Positions 25,111 through 61,786 of a stretch of 64,000 nucleotides of DNA are shown piece after piece. Both the position numbers and the translations under genes were made by a program. The number at the start of each line of letters is the position of its first letter. The first letter of the stretch is position 1. Origin of the DNA: a virus. The notes under the pieces were generated by a model. The model worked only from the letters and a program-made list of their open reading frames with translations. It made no database searches and was not told the origin of the DNA. The DNA lies in the IMG/VR virus record IMGVR_UViG_3300037452_000118, positions 1 to 64,000 of that record. One strand, written 5' to 3'.

Positions 25111-25983
25111 ATGCGCATCATCGTCGTCGGCGCCTCCGGGCTGATCGGCTCCGCCGTCGAGGCCGCAGCGCGCAAGGCCGGGCACGAGGTCGTCGGCACC
25201 TACGCGACGCGGCCGCGCGAGGGGCTGCTGCGGTTCGACGTGACGAAGGAAAACCTCCTCGACGTCGTCCCCGACCTCGGCGCTGACGACCGCGTGATGC
25301 TGATGTCGGCGGCGATCGATCAGGCGTGGGTGCAGGCGCACCCCGGCGAGTCGCACGCCGTCAACTACATCGGCGCCGTCGAGGTCGCCTCTGCGGCGCT
25401 GATGCGGGGGGCTTACCTCGTCTTCATGTCCAGCGAGGCGGTCTTCGGCATACCGGTCGGCGCGTACGGGTTCGGCGAGGACTCCGCGCCGGCGCCATTC
25501 GGCCTCTACGCCGAGCAGAAGGTCAAGGTGGAGCAGCGCCTCCCGCTCCGCGAGGCCTGCGTCGCGAGAGCCGGCCACGTCGTCGGCTGGGGCGCCGGGG
25601 ATACGCGGGACGCCGTTTCCGCGACCTACCGCGCGCTGCTCCAGCCGTACACGCGGATGGCCTACGACAACCTGTTCACGGTCACCGCCGTCGAGGACAT
25701 CGCCATGGGGCTCCTCCGTGCCGCCGAGCGCAGGACGTGCGGGGTGCTGCACCTCGCCGCCAACCCGCCAGTGTCGCGGACGCAGCTAGCGGACTGGATC
25801 AAGGCGTCGAGCCGGCACGGCGACCGGATGCGGTACCATCGCGTCCAGGTGGCGAGCCTGCCGATGGTCAGGGCGCCGCAGGCTTGGCTGCGCAGCGACC
25901 GCGCCGCGGAGCTCGGGCTGACCTTCGCGGAGCCGCGCTCCATCGTAGAGCGCAAAGTGGCGATCTTGGATCAGGAGATATGA
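25111..25983 (+). CDS. RmlD-like NAD(P)-dependent sugar reductase (SDR)
   Basis: 290 residues. It starts MRIIVVGASGLIGSAVEAAA, then VMLMSAAIDQAW (about 70), NYIGAVEVASAA, and VFMSSEAVFG near 107. YAEQKVKVEQ (YxxxK) lies near 133. This is the pattern of dTDP-4-dehydrorhamnose reductase-like proteins. It would reduce a 4-keto sugar, a logical late step after the dehydratase. DNA here returns to high GC after the AT-richer HNH and ATP-grasp genes. The leader at 25085 provides the ribosome site. Confidence 0.82.
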   Translation: MRIIVVGASGLIGSAVEAAARKAGHEVVGTYATRPREGLLRFDVTKENLLDVVPDLGADDRVMLMSAAIDQAWVQAHPGESHAVNYIGAVEVASAALMRGAYLVFMSSEAVFGIPVGAYGFGEDSAPAPFGLYAEQKVKVEQRLPLREACVARAGHVVGWGAGDTRDAVSATYRALLQPYTRMAYDNLFTVTAVEDIAMGLLRAAERRTCGVLHLAANPPVSRTQLADWIKASSRHGDRMRYHRVQVASLPMVRAPQAWLRSDRAAELGLTFAEPRSIVERKVAILDQEI

Positions 25984-25985
25984 CG

Positions 25986-26204
25986 ATGTGCGAAACTTGT
26001 GCGAACAAACTTCTGGAGCTGGCCGAAGCGGCGATGCCTCTTCCCGATCAAATGGGCGACGGGCGTGCCGCCAACACTCTGCGAGACGCGGCCAAGACTA
26101 TTCGTCCCATAGAAAATCTGGCTCTGCGCCAACTTGCAAACAGCACGCTCCCCAATGAGCTTGTTGGTATCAGGCTGCGTGAGATATTCGGCAACGGAGC
26201 GTAG
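25986..26204 (+). CDS. Small hypothetical protein
   Basis: 72 residues, MCETCANKLLELAEAAMPLP ... LREIFGNGA. The CETC near the start could bind metal, but no partner cysteines follow. ATG 25986 is preferred because AGGAG lies about eight bases upstream; an ATG at 25980 overlaps the previous stop. Less GC-rich than its flanks. Function unknown. Confidence 0.5.
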   Translation: MCETCANKLLELAEAAMPLPDQMGDGRAANTLRDAAKTIRPIENLALRQLANSTLPNELVGIRLREIFGNGA

Positions 26205-26207
26205 AAG

Positions 26208-27308
26208 ATGGCCCGAGTTCTCGTCATCGGCGGCGGGTTCGCCGGCTGCATCGCGGCGCAGATGCTGGCGGGGCGCCACGACGTCACCGTCGTCGAGCGG
26301 GCGCCGTTCCTCGGCGGCAGCTGCAAGACGTTCACATGGGGCGGCCACCCCTACACGCTGGGGCCACGGCACTTCCTCACGAAGAACGAGGACGCCTGGA
26401 ACTACCTCGACAGGTTCTGCCCGATGCACCGGTTTCCCGGCCACGAGTTCCTGACCTACGTCGAGCGCGACGCGCAGTTCTGCCACTACCCGATCCACGA
26501 GGACGACGTCGAGGCGATGCCGGACCGCGACGCCATCCGCGCGGAGCTGGCGGCGTGCCCCGGCGCGGCGGGAGCGCGGAACCTGGAGGAATATTGGCTG
26601 CTCTCGGTCGGCCCGACGCTCTACGACAAGGTCGTCAAGAACTACTCGAAGAAGATGTGGGGGATCGAGAGCAACACCGAGATCACGGACTTCGGCTTCA
26701 CGCCGAAGGGCGTCGCGCTGAAGCGCGGGCCGGTCAAGGCGGCGTGGAGCGAGGCGATGTCCGGCTTCCCGAAGGCGATGAACGGCTACGACGACTACTT
26801 CGGCATGGCGACGAAGGACTCGAAGGTGTTCCTGGGCACCAACATCGACGATTTCGACATGCCGAATCGCAAGGTCAAGATCGCCGGCGAGTGGAGCGCC
26901 TGGGACGTCATCGTCAGCACGGTGTCGGTCGAGGTCATCCTCAAGAACGCGCTGGGGCCGCTGCGCTGGGCGGGACGCGACTTCCTCAAGGTCGTACTGC
27001 CCGTCGAGCATTGCCTCCCGAAGGACGTCTACTTCCTCTACTACGCCAACGCGGAGCCGTTCACCCGGATCGTCGAGTACAAGAAGTTCTACCGCTACGA
27101 GGCGCCGACGACGCTGATCGGCATCGAGATACCCTCGACGAAGAACAAGCTCTACCCGTTCCCGATGAAGCGGGACCAGGATTTGCACGCGGAGTACCTG
27201 AAGCTGCTTCCGCCGAACGTCTTCTCGACGGGCCGAAACGGCACCTACCGCTACATCGATGTCGGGGTTATGATCGAACAGGGATTCGAGATGTTCCGTG
27301 ACGTTTGA
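26208..27308 (+). CDS. glf: UDP-galactopyranose mutase-like flavoprotein
   Basis: 366 residues, the usual length for UDP-galactopyranose mutase. The FAD-binding motif is VIGGGFAGCIAAQML, then VERAPFLGGSCKTF. Further landmarks are GPRHFLTKNEDAW near 57, SKKMWGI near 153, FGFTPKGVALKRGPVKA near 165, and a C-terminal FSTGRNGTYRYIDVGVMIEQG. The last matches the conserved G-R-x-x-x-Y-x-D segment. It would interconvert pyranose and furanose forms of a UDP-sugar using reduced FAD. Substrate may differ from galactose given the neighbouring enzymes. It ends the first block of the sugar cluster. Confidence 0.85.
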   Translation: MARVLVIGGGFAGCIAAQMLAGRHDVTVVERAPFLGGSCKTFTWGGHPYTLGPRHFLTKNEDAWNYLDRFCPMHRFPGHEFLTYVERDAQFCHYPIHEDDVEAMPDRDAIRAELAACPGAAGARNLEEYWLLSVGPTLYDKVVKNYSKKMWGIESNTEITDFGFTPKGVALKRGPVKAAWSEAMSGFPKAMNGYDDYFGMATKDSKVFLGTNIDDFDMPNRKVKIAGEWSAWDVIVSTVSVEVILKNALGPLRWAGRDFLKVVLPVEHCLPKDVYFLYYANAEPFTRIVEYKKFYRYEAPTTLIGIEIPSTKNKLYPFPMKRDQDLHAEYLKLLPPNVFSTGRNGTYRYIDVGVMIEQGFEMFRDV

Positions 27309-27316
27309 GCTGTCTC

Positions 27317-27336
27317 CTAGCGCCGAAAAACGCTAG
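27317..27336. other. Short perfect hairpin
   Basis: CTAGCG, an eight-base loop CCGAAAAA, and CGCTAG lie nine bases after the mutase stop. There is no T-run on either strand, so it is not a standard terminator; it may protect the mRNA 3' end. Confidence 0.35.
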
Positions 27337-27348
27337 TGAATGGCAATA

Positions 27349-27420
27349 AGGTGCCTCCTATGAAGGCTGGAGGCGGGACTGCCAGGATCGGCCCCGGATC
27401 AAGGACCAACAGGGGCACCT
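27349..27420 (+). other. Possible structured leader of the broken gene
   Basis: AGGTGCC (27349-27355) can pair with GGCACCT (27414-27420). An alternative inner hairpin pairs GCCTCC (27353-27358) with GGAGGC (27369-27374). The two helices share bases and are mutually exclusive, the layout of a switching leader. This could be chance in GC-rich DNA. Confidence 0.25.
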
Positions 27421-27449
27421 AATTTGTTCCGCGACGTATAGGAGGGATC

Positions 27450-27878
27450 ATGACCCCGCAAGTCGAGATCGCTTTGGCTGCTCCAGTATTCGATCCAGAG
27501 CGCCAGATCACTACCAAGTTTTTCTGGTATCCTGAGCGCCTGATCAGCGCCGGGCTGACCTGCAACATCGGGATGGAATGAAGCCGCTATGCCGGAGGCA
27601 GGCCGCTTTGGCAGCTCAGCCTTTCCTACCACGATCCCGAGACAGGTAGGCCGGTGCCGGTGCTCCGTTGGAGCCCAACGAAATGGCGGAAGGCGGAAGA
27701 ATTGAGAGATCGCATCATGCGCGGCGTCGGCACGGACGAGGAATGGGTAACCGAGGAAATGTCGGCGCAATTTGGAATGAGAGCTTACGCCGTTCACTAT
27801 CGGCGCCCGCTGCGCATCGACGAAATCGCGCGGATGGCGCCGACTACTGAAGTCAGAGAGAGGCCTGGAAGACCATGA
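27450..27878 (+). pseudogene. Hypothetical phage gene interrupted by an in-frame TGA
   Basis: A strong ribosome site (AGGAGGG) precedes ATG 27450. The frame reads MTPQVEIALAAPVFDPE ... NIGME, meets TGA at codon 44 (27579-27581), and continues in the same frame with SRYAGGRPLWQLSLSYHDP and VLRWSPTKWRKAEEL to a stop at 27878. Both halves look like one protein of 141 residues. The TGA may replace a TGG Trp codon (GMEWSRY). No SECIS-like element or genome-wide TGA reassignment is seen, since neighbours end in TGA. A nonsense mutation or sequencing error is more likely than recoding. The end overlaps the next gene by ATGA. Confidence 0.75.
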
Positions 27879-29680
27879 CCGCGCTGCCTGCCGTCAACCT
27901 AGCGCCGGACCGCGACAAGGTGGCCGCCTTTTTCGCGCGGTATTTCCCGCGCAACGTCCGGCGCGTGCTGCTGGTCAACCCGCCAGACGCCGACTCCAGC
28001 CTGTTCCGCATCGAGACGGCCAAGCGCGGGCGCTATACCAACTACCCGCCCTATGGGCTCGGCGTGCTGGCGCAAAATCTCCGCGACGTCGGTGTCGACG
28101 TACGGCTGATCAATTTGAACCACATCGTGCTGAAGGCGGCGCGGTCGGGCGGCGCATTCGACTTCGACAAAACGTGGCAGGACGCGCTGTGGGCCGAGAT
28201 CGGGGACTTCGACCCCGACCTGGTCGGCGTCACCTGCATGTTCACGATGACGCATACGTCCTTCAAGCGGGTCTGCGAGTACGCCGCCAAGGAGTGCGGC
28301 GCCGTCGTCGCCATCGGCGGCGTGCACGTCACCAACGACGTCGAGCGCGTGCTGGACGACGTGCCCCACGCCCGCGTCGCTTTCCTACGCGAGGGCGACG
28401 TGGCCATCAAGAGCTTCGTCGCCACCGCCAACGGGGGCGCCCTCGGCGGGATGGGCCAGGTCATCCTCGACGACGGCGCCGAGCGGTTCCGCTTCACCGC
28501 CGAGCGCCAGCCGGGGGAGGACGAGATCGACGTGCTGCCGGCCTACGACCTCTGCGACATCGGCGAGCTGTCCCAGCACGGCACCGTCGGCGCCTTCTAC
28601 TGCTTCAAGCCGAAGGGCGCCCGCTTCGCTACGGTGCTGTCTAATCGCGGCTGCCGGGCGCAGTGCACGTTCTGCAGCGTCCGCAACTTCAACGGCAAGC
28701 GGGTGCGCCAGCGCAGCGTCGGCTCCGTGCTCGACGAGCTCCAGCTGCTCGAGGAGGTCCACGGCATCGACCACGTCATGTGGCTCGACGACGACCTGCT
28801 CAAGGACCACGCCCGCGCGATCGCGCTGTTCGATGGCAAGGTATCCCGCGGCCTGAAGATGACGTGGGACGCGACCAACGGGCTGATCGCGGCGTCGTGC
28901 ACCGACGAGGTCGTCGCGGCGATGGCGGCGTCGGGCTGCATCGCCGTCAACATCGGCATGGAGTCCGGCTCGCCGGAGATCCTGCGCAAGGTCAAGAAGC
29001 CGGGGACTGTGGAGAACTTCGTCGAGGCCGCTGACATCCTGCGGAAATTTCCGCAGATACACTCCAGCGTCTTCCTCATGGTCGGCTTCCCCGGCGAGAC
29101 GATGGCCCAGATCACGCAGACGATCGACGTCGCGAGGCGCATGGACATGGACTGGTACCGGATCAGCCCGGTGCAGCCGCTGCCGAACACGCCGATGTAC
29201 GACGCGATGGTCGAGCAGGGCCTCGTCCAGGCCGTCGGCAGCAAGGAGCTGCGCTTCATGGGCGGCGCCTACGGCAAGCAGGCCGAGATCGAGCAGGGCC
29301 AGCGGATGACGACGGGGAGCTTCAAGGAGGCCTTCGCCGCGATCGCGCCGGGCGACGTGCCGACCGAGGACCAGATCACCGACATCTGGTTCTACATGAA
29401 CTTCCACCTCAATTTCCGCCGGCTGTTCGACGAGGACCGGCCGGTGAAGGTCGAGCAGCAGCTCGCCCACCTCCGCGCGCTGTCCGACGTCATCTCGCCG
29501 GAGAACGGCTTCGCGCTCTACTTCACCGCATACCTGCAGCGGAAGTTCCGCAGCGCCGTCCAGGACGGGCTGACGGACCGCCTGCGGGCGCGGCTGGACA
29601 CCTCGCCGTACTGGCGCGACCGCTTCGCGGCGTTCGATCTCAACGTGGACGATCTGATCCCTCGTGCGTCGGCGAAATAA
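27875..29680 (+). CDS. B12-binding radical SAM enzyme, second
   Basis: 601 residues. The N-terminal cobalamin-binding-like region includes VLLVNPPDADSS, YPPYGLGVLAQNL and VVAIGGVHVTND. The radical SAM motif is CRAQCTFC (Cys260, 264, 267), preceded by VLSNRG. Then come HVMWLDDDLLKD, IAVNIGMESGSPEILRKVKK and VGFPGETMAQI. A C-terminal helical domain of about 150 residues ends FRSAVQDGLTDRLR. Architecture matches P-methylase/B12 radical SAM enzymes that methylate or rearrange carbon skeletons. Base composition is strongly GC-rich, unlike the radical SAM gene at 18181, so the two probably have different histories. Confidence 0.87.
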   Translation: MTALPAVNLAPDRDKVAAFFARYFPRNVRRVLLVNPPDADSSLFRIETAKRGRYTNYPPYGLGVLAQNLRDVGVDVRLINLNHIVLKAARSGGAFDFDKTWQDALWAEIGDFDPDLVGVTCMFTMTHTSFKRVCEYAAKECGAVVAIGGVHVTNDVERVLDDVPHARVAFLREGDVAIKSFVATANGGALGGMGQVILDDGAERFRFTAERQPGEDEIDVLPAYDLCDIGELSQHGTVGAFYCFKPKGARFATVLSNRGCRAQCTFCSVRNFNGKRVRQRSVGSVLDELQLLEEVHGIDHVMWLDDDLLKDHARAIALFDGKVSRGLKMTWDATNGLIAASCTDEVVAAMAASGCIAVNIGMESGSPEILRKVKKPGTVENFVEAADILRKFPQIHSSVFLMVGFPGETMAQITQTIDVARRMDMDWYRISPVQPLPNTPMYDAMVEQGLVQAVGSKELRFMGGAYGKQAEIEQGQRMTTGSFKEAFAAIAPGDVPTEDQITDIWFYMNFHLNFRRLFDEDRPVKVEQQLAHLRALSDVISPENGFALYFTAYLQRKFRSAVQDGLTDRLRARLDTSPYWRDRFAAFDLNVDDLIPRASAK

Positions 29681-29681
29681 A

Positions 29682-30668
29682 ATGCTTCTCGTGAAAACAA
29701 AAGCGGCACCAAGCGCGATTCACGGCACGGGGCTGTTTGCCGACGAGCCCATAAAGCGTGGCGCGATCGTCTGGCGCTTCGACGACAGCACGGAAGAATC
29801 GTTCAGCCCCGAGGAAGCGGAAGCGCTGCCGGAACCGAAACGCACGAGGGTTCTGAGCCTCGTGCACTCGTACATCAGCAACCCGGACGGGCGGTTTATC
29901 CTGAGCAAGGACGACGCGATCTACTTCAACCACTCGTTCGCCCCGAACGTCGTGGAGACCGGCGACGGCCGGTGCGCGGCCCTGCGCGACATCCCCCGCG
30001 GCGAGGAGTTGACCATCGACTACAGGGACTATGCCGAGGACAATCCCCTGAACTTCGAGGTGGCAATGAGCGACGAACTAAGATTCGATCCTTCGCGCTT
30101 CCGCTTGGACGCCGACGCCCGTTCGCTGTCCTATTGCAGCCTCGACGCCACGGTCGGCGTAGACGACAGGCTGGTCGACACGCTGGTCGCGGAGTCAGAG
30201 CGCCGCGGCGGCGTCAACGCGCGGGTCTGCCTGCACACGTCGCCGGAATCCAACTTCCACGAGATGGTCATCCTGGAGCGCCGGGGCTACTACTTCCCGC
30301 CGCACCGGCACACCAACAAGGCGCAGTCCTGCAACATCCTGCGCGGCGAGGCGGCCGTGTTCGTCTTCGACGACGCCGGCAACGTGAAGCGCACCTGCGT
30401 CCTGGGGCGCGACGGCAACCTGATCTTCAGGATCGGCGAGGAGCGCTACCACCTCACGCTGCCGCTGACGGACTTCATCGTCTACCACGAGGGCAAGCCC
30501 GGCCCGTTCGAGCGCGAGGGCGACAGCATCTACGCGGAGTGGGCGCCGAAGCGCGAGGACAAGGAGGCGGTCGCGAAGTATCTGGACCATCTCCGCCATT
30601 TCGTCGAGCCGCGCGTCGTGAAGGGGCCGATCATCGGCGACCCGCAAGAGCCGCCAGACGTGCCGTGA
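29682..30668 (+). CDS. SET-domain / WbuC-like cupin fusion protein
   Basis: 328 residues. Residues 1-120 are a SET-like domain: AIHGTGLFADEPIKRGAIVW, YFNHSFAPNVV (Asn83-His84) and GEELTIDYRDY. These are the SAM- and lysine-binding landmarks of SET methyltransferases. Residues 130-310 are a cupin resembling the WbuC family from O-antigen clusters: VCLHTSPESNFHEMVI, YYFPPHRHTNKAQSCN and VFVFDDAGNV. A continuous frame joins them; an internal ATG at 30067 could also give the cupin alone. The cupin links it to glycan synthesis, and the SET part may methylate protein or a small molecule. Start ATG 29682 is two bases after the previous stop. Confidence 0.78.
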   Translation: MLLVKTKAAPSAIHGTGLFADEPIKRGAIVWRFDDSTEESFSPEEAEALPEPKRTRVLSLVHSYISNPDGRFILSKDDAIYFNHSFAPNVVETGDGRCAALRDIPRGEELTIDYRDYAEDNPLNFEVAMSDELRFDPSRFRLDADARSLSYCSLDATVGVDDRLVDTLVAESERRGGVNARVCLHTSPESNFHEMVILERRGYYFPPHRHTNKAQSCNILRGEAAVFVFDDAGNVKRTCVLGRDGNLIFRIGEERYHLTLPLTDFIVYHEGKPGPFEREGDSIYAEWAPKREDKEAVAKYLDHLRHFVEPRVVKGPIIGDPQEPPDVP

Positions 30669-31666
30669 TGATGCGGCCGACCGTCGTCAAGATCGCCGCC
30701 TGGGGCGACCGCCATATTGAGTCGCTGCACCAGAACATCCTGCCTTGCCTGCTGGCGCCGCGGAACCTGCCGGCGCTGTGCGCGGCGTCGGAGACGGAGC
30801 TGATCCTCTACACCGACAGGCCGGCCAATATCGACCCTGAGATCCCGGGTTTGACGGTGACCGTCCGCGTGCTGGCGCCGCTGCCGGACGCCGGCGACCT
30901 GCCGGCGAACCGCAGGGTGCTGGCGCGGACCGACGCGGAGAGCGCCCGGCTCGCCGCGGCGAGGGACGCCGACTGGTTCGGCCTCCAGGCCGACACCTTG
31001 ATCAGCGACGCCTTTCTGCCCAGGGTCAAGGACCTGCTCGTCGCGTACCTCGCCGTGGCCGGGAGCCCGATCAGGACGGACGCCGACGCCCTGCGGGCGG
31101 CCGCCGGCGCGCGCCGCGCCTTCGACGCCGCCGACCTGCGCCGCCTCTCGATGGCCTGCCTGCACCCGGTGACGGCGGGCTACTTCGTCCGCGACCCGCC
31201 GGCCACGATCCCGGCCGACCCGCACCAGCTGCTGTTCCGCACCGCCAGCGGCTTCGCGGCGCGGACCTGGCAGTTTTGCCCGTTCGGCATCAGCCCCGAG
31301 GGTTTGCGGCCGATGATGACGTCCGACGAGGATTCGGAGCAGCCGATCGACGACGAGTCGACCATCGACTGCTACCTCGTCCAGAACCTGCCGTCGGCGC
31401 GGGTACGCTTCCACCGCCCGGCGACGGACGACTTCTACCTGACCAGCCTCGACGATCCGTCCGGCATCCCGAGGTTCGGCGAGTTCGAGATGTCGGCGGC
31501 CGGCGTCGCGGGCTCGATCCGCAAGTTCTCGCGGGACTACGGTGATGTCATCAACTACGGCGTCGCGCTTCGGCAGCGGTTCGCCTACCCGACGGAGGTC
31601 GCGCTGCCGGACAGCCTCGGCGAGGAGGAGACGCTGGAAGCGGTACGCAAGGCGCTGACGCCGTAA
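30668..31666 (+). CDS. WGD-family protein 1, glycosyltransferase-like
   Basis: 332 residues beginning MMRPTVVKIAAWGDRHIESLH, then ILPCLLAPRNLPAL and TELILYTDR. That beginning resembles the proteins at 32132 and 37724. The strand-helix-strand start followed by an acidic YTD resembles a GT-A nucleotide-sugar fold, with DADWFGLQADTLISDAF near residue 98 as a possible acidic site. I cannot name the family with certainty. The gene lies between the SET-cupin and SPASM radical SAM genes, so a sugar-transfer role is reasonable. ATG 30668 overlaps the previous stop. Confidence 0.6.
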   Translation: MMRPTVVKIAAWGDRHIESLHQNILPCLLAPRNLPALCAASETELILYTDRPANIDPEIPGLTVTVRVLAPLPDAGDLPANRRVLARTDAESARLAAARDADWFGLQADTLISDAFLPRVKDLLVAYLAVAGSPIRTDADALRAAAGARRAFDAADLRRLSMACLHPVTAGYFVRDPPATIPADPHQLLFRTASGFAARTWQFCPFGISPEGLRPMMTSDEDSEQPIDDESTIDCYLVQNLPSARVRFHRPATDDFYLTSLDDPSGIPRFGEFEMSAAGVAGSIRKFSRDYGDVINYGVALRQRFAYPTEVALPDSLGEEETLEAVRKALTP

Positions 31667-31766
31667 AATTCGGTGTGGACGGCGGCCGTCAAAGAATGGA
31701 TAATTATACCTTCAGAAAGTTGTCACGGAAGCCAGCCCGCGCCCGCCAACTTCATAGGAGAGAACG

Positions 31767-32135
31767 ATGTTCGTTGAGACTAAAAAGGACGGTGAGGCCC
31801 TACCGGTAACTCCGTCGGCGAAGGATGTTCTGGTCGCCGCCCGCGCAAAAATCGCCGAACCCGAAAATTGGTGTCAGGGCTGTCAAGGATTGGACAAGGA
31901 TGGCTGCGGCGTCAATCCGCTCGATTCCGACGCCGTGAAGCATTGTGCGCTCGGTGCGCTTTCTGCGGTCATCGGCAGCTACGTTCTTCCAACCCATCCA
32001 GCCCGCGTCGTTCTGCAACGCTGTGTCCCCGGTCCGATTGGCCCTTGGAATAATCGCCACTCACATACCGAAGTCGTCGCGGCCTTCGACGCTGCAATCG
32101 CGTGCATAAGCGGCCAAGCCCAAGGGGCAACATGA
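31767..32135 (+). CDS. DUF6197-like hypothetical protein
   Basis: 122 residues. The pattern VLVAARAKIAEPENWCQGC, HCALGALSAVIGSY, GPWNNRHSHTEVVAAFDAAI (quoted in parts) resembles the DUF6197 family as I recall it, small proteins of unknown role in phages and actinobacteria. GGAGAG precedes ATG 31767. The upstream gap of 100 bases is AT-richer (TGGATAATTATACC) and may hold a promoter. It overlaps the next gene by ATGA. Confidence 0.6.
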   Translation: MFVETKKDGEALPVTPSAKDVLVAARAKIAEPENWCQGCQGLDKDGCGVNPLDSDAVKHCALGALSAVIGSYVLPTHPARVVLQRCVPGPIGPWNNRHSHTEVVAAFDAAIACISGQAQGAT

Positions 32136-33052
32136 GATTCCGCTTCACCCTCGTGGTCTGGGGCGATTGGCACATCGGCCAGTTCGTCAGGCACGGCCTG
32201 CCCAGCCTGCGGGCGCCGGGCAACCTCGACGCGATCGACCACGTCGTTTCCGCGAAGACACGGCCGTCGGACCTGGAGCGCGTGCGCGCGGCGCTGGACG
32301 GCGTCAACGCCGAGATCGAAGCGCTGCTTCCCGACGACATCGGCTCCGACCAGGCGACCTGCAACACGGCGGTCTTCACGCACAACGTCGACGACCGATC
32401 CGCCGCCGCCCAGGCCGGGGAGGCCTGGGGACTGCTGTCGCCCGACATGGTGTGGGGCGAGGGAACGTGGGCGCACCACCGCGCCGCGCTGGAGGGCGGC
32501 GCGAAGGCGGTCTTCCGCCCGCTGCTGCGCGTCGACTCCGAACGCGCCGGGACGATCCGCGATTTCCGCAGACGCAGCCTCGCCGCGACCGCCTTGGAGC
32601 ACGAGCACGCGATCGCGCGGACGGACTACCGCGCCGGCGGGGAGAGGTTCTCGCCGCACGCCGAGATGATTATCTGGGAGGCGCCGGGTTGGCTGATCAA
32701 CCGGACCATCACCGCTGAAGTCCAGACCTGCATCCCGGCTGCGGTGCCGTTCAACTCGCAGGGTTTGTCGGCGCTGCCGCTGGACGGCGAGATGTGCGTG
32801 GTCCGCGACAGCGACGAGGCGATCGCGGTGGCGATGTGCCCGCCGGACAAGGACTTCGGCTGGCTGCAGGGGACGCGACCGCTCGATGTCGACCTTGTCC
32901 GCGGTTTCCTGCGGTCCTACAACTCGCCGGCATCGAGGAACATCGCGCGCCAATCCTACCACCTGCATGCGGGCGACATCGTCGATGCCGAGATATGGAA
33001 AACGGTATTAGATCGTAGATCAGACGATTTCATCACGGAGGTCTTCGCGTGA
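32132..33052 (+). CDS. WGD-family protein 2, glycosyltransferase-like
   Basis: 306 residues. It begins MRFRFTLVVWGDWHIGQFV, then GLPSLRAPGNLDAIDHVV, aligned with the starts of the proteins at 30668 and 37724. The middle has GLLSPDMVWGEGTWAHH near 110, and the C-terminal part includes RTDYRAGGERFSPHAEMII. Acidic and histidine residues cluster in these segments. Function is unknown; the repeated presence of three such proteins in the glycan region suggests a transferase or sugar-modifying role. ATG 32132 overlaps the previous stop, and the end overlaps the SPASM gene by GTGA. Confidence 0.6.
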   Translation: MRFRFTLVVWGDWHIGQFVRHGLPSLRAPGNLDAIDHVVSAKTRPSDLERVRAALDGVNAEIEALLPDDIGSDQATCNTAVFTHNVDDRSAAAQAGEAWGLLSPDMVWGEGTWAHHRAALEGGAKAVFRPLLRVDSERAGTIRDFRRRSLAATALEHEHAIARTDYRAGGERFSPHAEMIIWEAPGWLINRTITAEVQTCIPAAVPFNSQGLSALPLDGEMCVVRDSDEAIAVAMCPPDKDFGWLQGTRPLDVDLVRGFLRSYNSPASRNIARQSYHLHAGDIVDAEIWKTVLDRRSDDFITEVFA

Positions 33053-34167
33053 ACCTGCACCTCGCGTCAGACCTGCTCCTGGACAAGCATCTTCCGGAGC
33101 CGGAGCCTGTCCCCGACAAGGCGGCCTACCTCCGCGAGCGCGAGGCCTGCCTGGCGCTGTCGCCGGCGGCGCGCGAGAACTGGGAGCGCTACGAGCGCTC
33201 GACGAGGCGCGAGGCGGAGCTGGACTACCTGCCGGTCCGGCTCGACGTCGAGAACGTCAGCCGCTGCAATTTTCGTTGCACCATGTGCCAGGTCAGCGAC
33301 TGGCCGAAGGGCCAGCGCGCCGCCGACATGAGCCTCGACGACTTCAAGCGGCTGCTCGACGAGCAGGTCGGAGTCGTAGAGCTGAAAATCCAGGGCTTCG
33401 GCGAGCCGACGATGGGCGCCCACTATTTTGAAATGATCCAATACGCGAGGGCGCGGCGGATATGGGTGCGCACCATCACCAACGCCTCGCGGCTGCATTT
33501 GAGAAACACGTTTCAAAAGTTGGTCGATACCGACGTGAACGAAATCCAAATATCAATAGACGGCGCAACGAAGGAAGTCTTCGAGGGCATCCGGCGCGGC
33601 TCGGTGTTCGAGCAGGTCGTGAAGAATTGCGCGCTGATCAATGGCTATGCAAAAGCCCAGGGCAAGCTACGAACCAAAATGTGGACTGTCGTGCAACAAA
33701 CCAACGCGCACCAGCTCGACGACCTGGTCGACCTCGCCTACGACGCCGGCTTTGCGCATTTGGTTTTTTCATTTGAATTGATTGATTTTGGGCAGCCGAA
33801 ATGGAAGGAGACGAACGATGCCGCCTCGGTCGCGGATCGGATAAGCCTCGCGGAATGTTGGCGGCTGCACCATCGCGCCAAGGCGCTCGGCGTCCGATTG
33901 GGTTTTTGGTTTGCCAACGAACGCTATAGCTATGAGGCGGGCAACCCGGAAAAGCTATGCTCGTGGCCGTTTCAGTCTGCCTACATCTCGTCCGACATGA
34001 AAATCGTACCGTGCTGTATAATTGGAAACCCCGAAGTTAGCAATTTCGGCGATGCCCGCAAGCTCACTGAACTTTGGAATGGCCCCGCCATCAAGGCTTT
34101 CCGTGAGGGTCATTTGACGGGGTGTGTTCCGGATATTTGCAGGTCCTGTTATAAGGGGAATCGCTGA
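33049..34167 (+). CDS. Radical SAM/SPASM-domain enzyme
   Basis: 372 residues. The radical SAM motif is CNFRCTMC (Cys73, 77, 80), with IQGFGEPTMG near 117, ITNASRL and IQISIDGATKEVFEGIRRG. The C-terminal SPASM region carries cysteines in LCSWPF, VPCCIIGNP and CRSCY, for auxiliary iron-sulfur clusters. Such enzymes modify peptides, sugars or alcohols. In glycan clusters SPASM proteins can act as dehydrogenases or dehydratases. DNA shifts from GC-rich to noticeably AT-richer after about 33400, suggesting a recombination junction inside the gene. GTG start overlaps the previous stop. Confidence 0.85.
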   Translation: MNLHLASDLLLDKHLPEPEPVPDKAAYLREREACLALSPAARENWERYERSTRREAELDYLPVRLDVENVSRCNFRCTMCQVSDWPKGQRAADMSLDDFKRLLDEQVGVVELKIQGFGEPTMGAHYFEMIQYARARRIWVRTITNASRLHLRNTFQKLVDTDVNEIQISIDGATKEVFEGIRRGSVFEQVVKNCALINGYAKAQGKLRTKMWTVVQQTNAHQLDDLVDLAYDAGFAHLVFSFELIDFGQPKWKETNDAASVADRISLAECWRLHHRAKALGVRLGFWFANERYSYEAGNPEKLCSWPFQSAYISSDMKIVPCCIIGNPEVSNFGDARKLTELWNGPAIKAFREGHLTGCVPDICRSCYKGNR

Positions 34168-37727: not shown

Positions 37728-38647
37728 AGATCGAGGTCGTCGTCGCGGCGTGGGGACACTGGGCGCAGCGCTGGCGCAACCTCAACTGCGCCGTCGTGCG
37801 GGCCGAGGCCGACGACGTCGGCGGCACCTTGGTCGTCTACGCCGACGACGACGGCCGCGAGCGGCTGGCGGGGGAATGGATCGACGAGTTCAGGCCGCTG
37901 CCGGAGCCGGTGAGCTGGTTCGACCAGGCCGACGGCGCGCACGCCGACGCGATCGACCGGGCCCTGGCCGGCGGCTACGCCGTGGCGCCGCTGTGCGCGT
38001 CGCTCCGCCTCGGCAGGGGGACGCTCGCCGCCGCCAAGCGCCGGCTCGACGCCGGCTACCGGGCCTGCATGGCGCTCTGCGTCCCGGCCGGGGTGCCCGA
38101 CAAGGTCGAGACCGCCGCGGCGATGTCGGCCAAGCTCAAGCACGCCGGGTTCGGCTGGTGGGAGGGCAGGACGAGGACGACCCACCCCGGCCACTATGCC
38201 TGGCGCTCGGCCAACGGCGCCGTCCTGGTGCGGCCGATCTACCACCACCCCGTCCTCATCAGGCCGACGCGCGCCCACGCTCCGCGCCGCGCCGCCGACC
38301 ACTTCATGACCGAGGGCTACCTCGACGACGTCTCGCAGGTCGCGCAGCTCGACCCCCTCGACGGCTGCATCAGCGGCCTGCCGGCCCACGACGGCACCGG
38401 CCCTCCGCCGGGCCCGGCCAGGCCCCCGGAGAACCCGGCGCTGGCGGAGCCCGCCGGCATCGTGGGCTGGATGCTGTCCGGGGTCGGCGTCGCCGGCGGC
38501 GTCAACGTGATGCCCTGGAACCTGCACTACATGGCCCACCGCTTCTGGTGTGGCGAGCCCGGCGCCGACAGGCTAGAAGTTGAGATGGAATCGGACCGCG
38601 CCGTCGCCGAGATCAGGCGGATTTATTTTGAAAGGGTAGGAAAGTGA
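37724..38647 (+). CDS. WGD-family protein 3, glycosyltransferase-like
   Basis: 307 residues starting MKIEVVVAAWGHWAQRWRN. The core VVAAWGHW matches AAWGDRH and VVWGDWH of the proteins at 30668 and 32132. GTLVVYADDDGRERL near residue 35 corresponds to the YTD segment of the first. Later come YHHPVLIRPTRAHAP near 180 and NVMPWNLHYMAHRFW near 263. The shared strand, acidic turn and His/Trp-rich later segment support a common fold. Overlap with the methyltransferase gene suggests coupling. Its stop codon is part of the stem of the RNA candidate downstream. Confidence 0.6.
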   Translation: MKIEVVVAAWGHWAQRWRNLNCAVVRAEADDVGGTLVVYADDDGRERLAGEWIDEFRPLPEPVSWFDQADGAHADAIDRALAGGYAVAPLCASLRLGRGTLAAAKRRLDAGYRACMALCVPAGVPDKVETAAAMSAKLKHAGFGWWEGRTRTTHPGHYAWRSANGAVLVRPIYHHPVLIRPTRAHAPRRAADHFMTEGYLDDVSQVAQLDPLDGCISGLPAHDGTGPPPGPARPPENPALAEPAGIVGWMLSGVGVAGGVNVMPWNLHYMAHRFWCGEPGADRLEVEMESDRAVAEIRRIYFERVGK

Positions 38648-38824
38648 ACTTAGCGGAGCGGAGGCGGGGAAAGCAGACCCGCACGGACTGGACACAGGTA
38701 CGCAGGGAATTAGGGGCGCAAGCTCCGTGAATTGCGACGCACCTCAGCGGGTTCGATTCCCGACGGTCATCAACGAAATAGCGATGAAGCTGGAGTAGCG
38801 CCCAGCCCGCTCCGCTAAGTTCAT
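38644..38824 (+). ncRNA. Structured RNA candidate closed by a 16-bp stem, with a T-loop-like arm
   Basis: Positions 38646-38661 (AACTTAGCGGAGCG core) are perfectly complementary to 38807-38822, closing a domain of about 177 bases. Inside are GCGGG/CCCGC with a nine-base loop, GGGGC-GCAA-GCTCC with a GNRA tetraloop on a longer AATT/AATT extension, and TCATC/GATGA. One arm, CGGGTTCGATTCCCG, has the exact tRNA T-loop sequence TTCGATT. No matching acceptor or anticodon arm gives a normal tRNA. End-closed stem plus T-arm mimic recalls YrlA-type Y RNAs, but I cannot confirm that. No ORF explains the pairing. Confidence 0.6.
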
Positions 38825-38852
38825 ACGAGCTAAAGCCGCAAAGGAGGATCAA

Positions 38853-39062
38853 ATGCCCAAGTGTCGTTTCTGCGGTGCGGACATGATCTTCCGAGATTTT
38901 GGTCCGTACTACCCGCTCTACGATGTTCCCGGCGCGAGCGTCGGCTATTGGGAATGTCTCAATTTCAACGATGGTCGCCACGGCGATCCGCGACAGAGAC
39001 AGGACCGTTATCAGACGAACGACAAAACCCTCGTGCCAAAGGAGAAATATCATGCCGCTTAA
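38853..39062 (+). CDS. Small zinc-finger hypothetical protein
   Basis: 69 residues starting MPKCRFCGADMIFRDFGP. One CxxC is near the start and a lone Cys is near residue 35 (GYWECLNFNDG). AAAGGAGG precedes the ATG. It overlaps the next gene by 11 bases. Function unknown. Confidence 0.55.
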   Translation: MPKCRFCGADMIFRDFGPYYPLYDVPGASVGYWECLNFNDGRHGDPRQRQDRYQTNDKTLVPKEKYHAA

Positions 39063-39948: not shown

Positions 39949-40917
39949 ATGCAGTGGTGTTGGAATTGTTTTTCGCATAATCCTACGGGCATCCGCTCTC
40001 TCGAGGACATCATCGAGATCGTCTCCGGCCAGCTCATCGCGCTGGGCCACACCGCGGCGTGGGACCGGACCAACGAGCACATGGTCGCGCGGGACGCCGG
40101 CATCAACATCCTCGTCGAGGGCTTCACGGAGCACCACGTCGGCATCGTCAAGCAGATGCACGAGGCCGGCGCGCGCTTCATCGTCCTCGCCACCGAGGAG
40201 CCGACCGACAAGGGCTTCAACCACGGCACGCAGAAGGAGATGGTGGAGAGGCAGCAGGTGTTCCCGCTGATCGCCCCGTACATCGAGGGCATCATCCACC
40301 TCGTCCCCGGCGACCACGTCACGCGCTGGTACTCGCAGTTCGCGCCGTCGGCCTACACCGAGCTAGGCTGGTCGCCGAAGATCATGCGGCAGAACGCGCC
40401 GATCGTCGTGAAGAACAAGGACGGCTCGCAGCGCGTCATCCCGGAGCCGGACTACGAGTTCGGCTTCTACGGCTCGCTGACCGATCGGCGGCACAAGCTG
40501 CTGAAGAAGCTGGCCAAGAGGGTCACCAACAACCCGAAGGCCATCGTGACGATGGTCGACTTCGGCACCCGGGGCAACCGCGACAACGAGATGCGCCGCG
40601 CCAAGGTCATCGTGCAGCTCCGCAAGTTCGACGAGATGGGGCTGGTGTCGTCGAGCCGCTGCAACACCGCGCTGGCCATCGGGCGGCCGGTGATCGCGGA
40701 GCCGCACGAATTGGCGAAACCGTGGGACGAAGTGATCCGCTTCTCGAAGACGCAGGAGTCCTTCATCGACGAGGCGATGGCGATGCGCGCGATGTGGCGC
40801 GGCGTCTACCAGCACCAGGTGGCCAAGTTCAAGGAGAAGTTCCCGCCGGAGGCCTGCATCGGTCGCGCGCTGGAGATCCTCGGCATCGGGCAGGAGCCGC
40901 GGAGGCTGGCGTCGTGA
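39949..40917 (+). CDS. Glycosyltransferase-like protein (GT-B type)
   Basis: 322 residues. The second half has FGFYGSLTDRRHKLLKKLAK near 165, AKVIVQLRKFDEMGLVSSSR near 222 and NTALAIGRPVIAEPHE near 240. These match the donor-binding domain of GT-B glycosyltransferases (GxLxxRR, then the E/R-rich nucleotide-sugar site). The first half has a Rossmann-like INILVEGFTEHHVG and ARFIVLATEEP. It would transfer a sugar, plausibly the product of the cluster upstream. ATG 39949 follows GGAGATG. Isolated from its neighbours by small zinc-finger genes. Confidence 0.72.
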   Translation: MQWCWNCFSHNPTGIRSLEDIIEIVSGQLIALGHTAAWDRTNEHMVARDAGINILVEGFTEHHVGIVKQMHEAGARFIVLATEEPTDKGFNHGTQKEMVERQQVFPLIAPYIEGIIHLVPGDHVTRWYSQFAPSAYTELGWSPKIMRQNAPIVVKNKDGSQRVIPEPDYEFGFYGSLTDRRHKLLKKLAKRVTNNPKAIVTMVDFGTRGNRDNEMRRAKVIVQLRKFDEMGLVSSSRCNTALAIGRPVIAEPHELAKPWDEVIRFSKTQESFIDEAMAMRAMWRGVYQHQVAKFKEKFPPEACIGRALEILGIGQEPRRLAS

Positions 40918-44162: not shown

Positions 44163-44242
44163 TCCCGTTGCAACGAATCGTCGCCCCGTGCGACAAACGT
44201 CGCCGGTGCGAGAGAACTCCTCGAAACCGTTGGAAGTCCCCG

Positions 44243-44277
44243 CCGCCGGCAGCACCCCCTGCCGGCGGTTTGCTTTT
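44243..44277 (+). terminator. Rho-independent terminator
   Basis: A perfect 10-bp stem CCGCCGGCAG/CTGCCGGCGG with a six-base loop is followed at once by TTTGCTTTT. It lies 80 bases after the Ig-like gene and before the packaging genes, so it separates the accessory and packaging transcripts. Confidence 0.9.
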
Positions 44278-44339
44278 GCGGATGGCATGCGGCTAAGATA
44301 GCCAATGCCGCAAAAAAATAGCCATTGGACCTGATCAAG

Positions 44340-61500: not shown

Positions 61501-61551
61501 TGATCTTTTCCCCTTCCTCTTATGCTCTCAATATGCGCATTTTCCGCGCCT

Positions 61552-61649
61552 TACGCAATATCCGCGCTTACGGCGGAACGGTGTGCCTGGCACGCGCCCC
61601 CGGCATAGCCCCCGGAGGGCGCGGGTATTGCGTACGCGGATATTGCGCA
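61552..61649. promoter_or_regulatory. Large imperfect palindrome with GCGGRTATTGCGYA iterons in the divergent control region
   Basis: The gap 61501-61786 separates divergent operons. TACGCAATATCCGCGC (61552-61567) pairs with GCGCGGGTATTGCGTA (61619-61634) over 16 bases with one G-T wobble. CGCGCCC (61594-61600) and GGGCGCG (61617-61623) form an inner helix sharing part of the right arm. Immediately right, GCGGATATTGCGCA (61636-61649) repeats the same half-site, giving three copies in two orientations. GTGCC-T-GGCAC (61583-61593) is a further small palindrome. This suits operators for a dimeric repressor or a replication origin. No clear promoter boxes stand out. Confidence 0.65.
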
Positions 61650-61786
61650 TATATCAGTATCGAAGGGAAAAGGAGGGGAAAAGCCGCGCAGTAAGGCCAA
61701 TCCGTTGCCCCCGGTCAAAAAGCGGACACCGCAAGTAGACCGTGGAGGGCAGCGAGCGCGGCGGCCCCCTCCCTGAAGGAGCAAGC

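Follow-up and report, generated by a model that had tools for sequence, protein, structure and literature searches.

An intergenic spacer of 205 nt (38648-38852) between two plus-strand genes of a contractile-tailed phage holds an element of ~180 nt, the ends of which pair over 17 bp and which contains a T-arm sequence probably derived from the end of the phage's own tRNA-Ile(GAT) gene. The element is real, unusual, and an orphan, and a tRNA-derived T-arm in an end-paired spacer is uncommon. We tentatively favour a reading in which the element forms a folded spacer within a polycistronic transcript of the phage and may act in RNA processing or stability. The sequence originates from IMG/VR record IMGVR_UViG_3300037452_000118, which comprises 128,813 bases; the window, i.e., the whole 64,000-nt stretch of DNA that was analysed, is the first half of this record. 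The sequence-only reading of this DNA had described a structured RNA with a tRNA T-arm that recalls Y RNAs; the end-paired element, which probably acts as RNA, and its T-arm sequence are retained here, whereas the identity as a Y RNA is not.

The tail sheath, baseplate, head maturation protease, and major head protein recognised in the record are those of a contractile-tailed phage. The gene upstream of the element has no Pfam, PHROG, or phage match, and no relatives of it were found; its earlier description as a glycan gene is thus not borne out by the gene itself, although a sugar-nucleotide island does precede it. This island (25111-34167) encodes RmlD, UDP-galactopyranose mutase, B12-radical SAM, SET-domain, and SPASM radical SAM proteins, and none of the related phage records compared has a convincing counterpart of it. 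The stop codon of the upstream gene marks the 5′ end of the element, and the ribosome-binding site of the downstream gene, AAAGGAGG, lies 17 nt after the element. The downstream CxxC protein has no Pfam match, and a search with two downstream genes found no relatives. Further downstream, gene 39949-40917 (+) is conserved in related phages with 46-83% amino acid identity. In several of these phages a homologue of the record gene 80346-80795 directly precedes the homologue of gene 39949, whereas the two genes are 40 kb apart here, and therefore the gene order is rearranged. Protein coding by a 569-aa minus-strand open reading frame that runs across the element was also considered and rejected, the frame being antisense to the conserved plus-strand gene 39949-40917. 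The coordinates of the element, its parts, and the two flanking genes are summarised in Table 1.

Table 1. Features of the end-paired element and its flanking genes (positions in the window)
Feature	Positions	Strand	Basis
Upstream gene, 316 aa	37697-38647	+	Gene call
Whole element, end-paired, within the spacer	38645-38823	+	Inverted repeat, fold z -6.0, gene calls
Closing helix, 5′ arm TGAACTTAGCGGAGCGG	38645-38661	+	Pair probability 0.98-1.0
Hairpin GCGGG-9 nt-CCCGC, competing with the T-arm segment for pairing	38664-38682	+	Pair probability ~0.43
GACUG, possible acceptor-like partner of CGGUC (38764-38768) with the T-arm forced	38686-38690	+	Constrained fold
Long central arm, AGGU/ACCU plus CGCAG/UUGCG (38701-38705/38732-38736), GNRA-capped	38696-38744	+	Pair probabilities 0.25, 0.57
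GNRA hairpin GGGGC-GCAA-GCUCC	38713-38726	+	Pair probability >=0.95
Segment similar to the tRNA-Ile(GAT) 3′ end and following spacer; holds the T-arm	38747-38778	+	Alignment
Hairpin UCAUC-11 nt-GAUGA, mutually exclusive with the acceptor-like helix	38767-38787	+	Pair probability 0.72-0.83
Hairpin GCUGG-8 nt-CCAGC, abutting the closing helix	38789-38806	+	Pair probability 0.98
Closing helix, 3′ arm CCGCTCCGCTAAGTTCA	38807-38823	+	Pair probability 0.98-1.0
Downstream gene, 69 aa, CxxC motif	38853-39062	+	Gene call

The two arms of the closing helix form a perfect inverted repeat of 17 bp with a gap of 145 nt; the stem had been called perfect from the sequence alone, although with a length of 16 bp. 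All other spaced perfect inverted repeats in the 128.8-kb record are shorter, and the maximum repeat in the controls was 14 (30 Markov simulations of the window) or 10 (300 dinucleotide shuffles of the region). The predicted fold of 38640-38830 has an energy of -84.0 kcal/mol (z -6.0), with 0 shuffles as stable, whereas the 145-nt interior without the closing helix has a z of only -0.71, with 47 of 200 shuffles folding as well, and therefore the order beyond chance is that of the closing helix. The earlier statement that the element is too ordered for spacer DNA depends on this helix. The complementary strand (-79.1) is nearly as stable as the gene strand because any inverted repeat folds nearly as well on both strands. 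Neither an intrinsic terminator nor a sigma-70-like promoter was found at the element, and the former was rejected on the absence of a T-run after the stem. A related record (G003) has a 16-bp repeat, its arms separated by 205 nt, that has AATTGCGACGC in common with the element; it was set aside because it is located inside a tail-fibre gene, and such inverted repeats are thus seen to arise in coding DNA too.

Among the interior hairpins, the GNRA hairpin reported from the sequence is present and firmly predicted, although it is no sign of unusual order by itself: the window holds 33 GNRA hairpins of >=5 bp, and therefore such a hairpin alone is ordinary. The hairpin at 38789-38806 occupies the position of a would-be permuted D-arm, and its loop contains no GG.

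The T-arm CGGG-TTCGATT-CCCG, read correctly from the sequence, is located at 38748-38762, and no other 4-bp T-arm with a TTCRANN loop besides CGGGTTCGATTCCCG occurs on either strand of the window. Its location within the longest repeat is unlikely to be a coincidence. In the free predicted ensemble the T-arm has a pair probability of 0.08, yet forcing it costs only 0.8 kcal/mol in minimum energy (-83.2 vs -84.0 kcal/mol), and thus fold prediction neither shows nor excludes the T-arm. In the forced fold, the helix GACUG/CGGUC adjoins the T-arm, the long arm is GNRA-capped, AUCA follows the helix, and there is no D-stem; this predicted arrangement resembles an acceptor-T-arm unit. However, the acceptor-like helix is of a kind expected by chance: by our arithmetic, ~0.7 five-pair helices with one G-U would occur within the 95 nt upstream.

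The T-arm has its closest counterpart in the phage's own tRNA-Ile(GAT) (L007 8430-8503), with which the element has 20 exact nucleotides in common, GCGGGTTCGATTCCCGACGG, comprising the T-arm and the start of the acceptor strand. The similarity extends, with two short gaps, through CAACGAAA, and at the tRNA locus it passes the CCA end into the spacer. Owing to the 20 exact nucleotides and the similarity past the CCA end, the T-arm was probably derived from the end of the tRNA-Ile(GAT) gene, a copy being the simplest reading of the alignment and convergence plus chance the alternative. Local alignment of the element with tRNA-Ile reaches a score of 44, whereas the best of 300 shuffles reaches 31; for the tail after the T-loop by itself, p is ~0.002 against tRNA-Ile and 0.04-0.07 if any of 31 tRNA tails is allowed to match. 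A lenient alignment of the whole interior with tRNA-Ile is not convincing, 5 of 300 shuffles being as good. In contrast to tRNA-Ile(GAT), the element lacks complete acceptor, D, and anticodon arms, and a covariance model of 25 phage tRNAs matches only the T-arm in it.

The tRNA array of the phage lies outside the window at 67.8-71.3 kb of the record (L007 7801-11289). ARAGORN finds 31 genes there, and permissive settings or the phage-tRNA model add several more, including serine and alanine candidates, to give about 36-38 in total. Many tRNAs of the array have non-standard T-loops, which is unusual for bacterial or phage tRNAs; examples are Lys-CTT GGGGATCGTGGCCCC, Pro GGATCGAAGCC, Glu-TTC GGATCGAAACC, Asp GGATCAATACC, and Phe GGCTCGAAACC (position 54 not T). 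Several of the array tRNAs are missed by the bacterial mode of ARAGORN.

The element is an orphan, with no homologue in five related records or in any collection searched. Blastn with the element found no homologue in phages and none in plasmids. The exact 16-mer of the closing stem has four matches in viral contigs, none with a second arm nearby, and a T-arm 22-mer (other than CGGGTTCGATTCCCGACGGTCA) found no homologue there. Related records were reached via the tail sheath and the genes at 39949 and 41297. The element is absent from the five of these that are whole or nearly so (G003, G004, G009, G011, and G013) and, by blastn, from further related records. The closest of them, G004 (IMGVR_UViG_3300050821_011222; 83% amino acid identity for gene 39949), ends inside gene 39949, short of the element. 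A structure-aware pattern for the GNRA arm gave at least 146 sites in the viral contigs and genome_contigs; the best score among the matches listed, 33, is near the shuffle maximum of 31 for the alignment of the element with tRNA-Ile, and this site has neither a pairing stem nor a T-arm.

The sequence-only reading had found that no full tRNA or tmRNA can be folded, which was confirmed: ARAGORN finds none at the element, an Rfam search over it gives nothing up to E 5, and a tRNA or tmRNA gene is likewise rejected by the phage's own tRNA model. The search that it had proposed with covariance models was run, and the YrlA and tRNA models match only the T-arm. The Rfam YrlA model RF02553, searched to E 10, aligns its positions 32-46, i.e., the T-arm only, with 9.2 bits and E 9; it gives the same 9.2 bits on the T-arm of the phage tRNA-Ile, against a family gathering score of 69. 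Neither TROVE/Ro (PF05731) nor RtcB (PF01139) was detected in the record, which is perhaps incomplete, and a host protein could serve in place of either. In bacterial Y RNAs, which bind Rsr and PNPase, the two ends pair into a stem and a tRNA-like domain carries D, T, and acceptor arms; YrlA is 90-150 nt long (PMC8394870). The element is similar in that its 5′ and 3′ ends form a long stem (17 bp) with a T-arm sequence inside; however, ~85 nt are inserted between the stem and the T-arm, its length exceeds that of YrlA, and it has no model match beyond the T-arm, no evident D-arm, and no Ro partner in the record. The suggested kinship with YrlA-type Y RNAs is therefore not upheld, and on these sequence comparisons the element should not be filed as YrlA. 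A retron non-coding RNA was also rejected, reverse transcriptase (PF00078) not being found in the record.

The reading as a folded intergenic spacer with a role in RNA processing or stability is based on the helix beyond all simulations, the z of -6.0, the absence of a terminator or promoter, the only T-arm motif, and the match to tRNA-Ile; furthermore, the element occupies the spacer exactly, starting on the stop codon and leaving 17 nt ahead of the ribosome-binding site. Against it are an interior no better than shuffles, the T-arm probability of 0.08, an acceptor-like helix expected by chance, the lack of a homologue, and the near-equal stability of the complementary strand (-79.1). The helix, its position, the T-arm sequence, and the likeness of the latter to tRNA-Ile are shown; we infer transcription across the element, formation of the T-arm, cleavage, and any benefit to the phage. 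Briefly, a polycistronic transcript would run in the plus direction across the spacer, the ends of which would pair over 17 bp; because 145 nt would thereby be looped out, the upstream stop codon would be brought near the downstream ribosome-binding site, and the shorter effective distance between them could keep the two genes coupled despite the spacer.

The perfect helix is, in addition, a candidate RNase III site. RNase III sites occur in phage intergenic mRNA, and a perfect helix of 17 bp is a plausible substrate. The likeness to such sites is that of a long perfect helix between same-direction genes, although those sites are simple hairpins, whereas the helix of the element closes a multibranched loop of 145 nt and can be considered a candidate site only. 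Similarly, RNase P or a different enzyme that acts on tRNA may find a contact in the T-arm together with its short acceptor-like helix and the adjacent AUCA. Known RNase P substrates include acceptor-T-arm model RNAs, the phage RNAs M3 and C4, and polycistronic mRNAs (PMC11143913). The element resembles the M3 RNA, the C4 antisense RNA of P1/P7, and the polycistronic mRNAs in having a T-arm-like hairpin beside a short acceptor-like helix; however, its helix stack is shorter than the 12 bp of a tRNA, and cleavage here is a candidate event. Through processing at the element, the upstream sugar-nucleotide block would no longer share the fate of the downstream genes.

A DNA-level origin is somewhat unlikely: the element would then be a recombination scar or a non-autonomous DNA element with 17-bp terminal repeats and a 145-bp core that carries a tRNA-gene end, the RNA fold being incidental. 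The perfect terminal repeats agree with this explanation, as do an interior not structured beyond chance, the absence of the element from related phages, where the surroundings of gene 39949 differ, and the tRNA-Ile-like segment, which passes the end of the tRNA and to that extent is unneeded for mimicry. However, the element is present as a single copy, its arm occurs only as this pair in the record, neither a target-site duplication nor a flanking direct repeat is seen at its ends, and no other copy was found in phages, plasmids, or viral contigs.

It is unlikely that the element is an ordinary spacer in which an inverted repeat and a T-arm-like sequence arose fortuitously. The interior, with a z of -0.7, would permit this, as would the lack of homologues, the similar repeat in the tail-fibre gene of the related phage (16 bp, 205-nt gap), and a tail similarity with a p of only 0.04-0.07 over any of 31 tRNAs; by contrast, the repeat, at 17 bp, is longer than in any simulation, its location is intergenic, and the sole T-arm motif of the window lies between its arms.

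A stable, trans-acting non-coding RNA, which would mimic tRNA as YrlA does or act as a decoy for tRNA-cleaving defence enzymes, is quite unlikely. An end-paired stem with a T-arm is also found in YrlA (PMC8394870), the phage carries a large tRNA array, and in formal terms a permuted tRNA-like domain has the same order of T-arm, hairpin, hairpin, and closing stem. However, the YrlA and phage-tRNA models match the T-arm only, the would-be D-loop lacks GG, no Ro or RtcB was detected in the record, and the T-arm is poorly formed in the prediction. A new type of phage non-coding RNA, in which the phage's own tRNA-Ile 3′ end is placed in an end-paired RNA as a trans-acting tRNA mimic, is very unlikely; in a phage that carries a near-complete tRNA set of its own, such an RNA might act as a decoy for tRNA-cleaving defence or as an adaptor for tRNA-binding proteins.

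An attachment site or captured host tRNA 3′ end is scarcely credible: the half-tRNA sequence with its T-arm and start of the acceptor strand would suit it, but no phage integrase family (PF00589) was found in the record, the 22-mer CGGGTTCGATTCCCGACGGTCA has no exact match in genome_contigs, which together make an att site unlikely, and the phage's own tRNA-Ile is the better match. Of the att-like tRNA fragment raised earlier, the tRNA fragment thus fits better than YrlA, whereas the att site is unlikely.

If an RNA is made from the element, it would be a case of a phage building, outside the tRNA array, a structured RNA with part of its own tRNA genes, and would join the few phage RNAs that exploit tRNA features for processing or mimicry; if the element is a scar and nothing more, it would document the movement of tRNA-gene ends within a phage genome. 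The general importance is limited because the element is an orphan. Other spacers of the phage are also folded. The spacer 61501-61786, which lies between divergent gene blocks, is the most strongly folded of those tested (z -8.8) and forms a long hairpin with ~90 nt on each side and a perfect core of 13 bp, CGCAATATCCGCG (61554-61566/61635-61647); it may serve as an origin or as a regulatory region for both directions. The spacers 44163-44324 and, in record coordinates, 78142-78275 are strongly folded as well, each with a G+C-rich hairpin followed by a T-rich tail, and look like ordinary intrinsic terminators.
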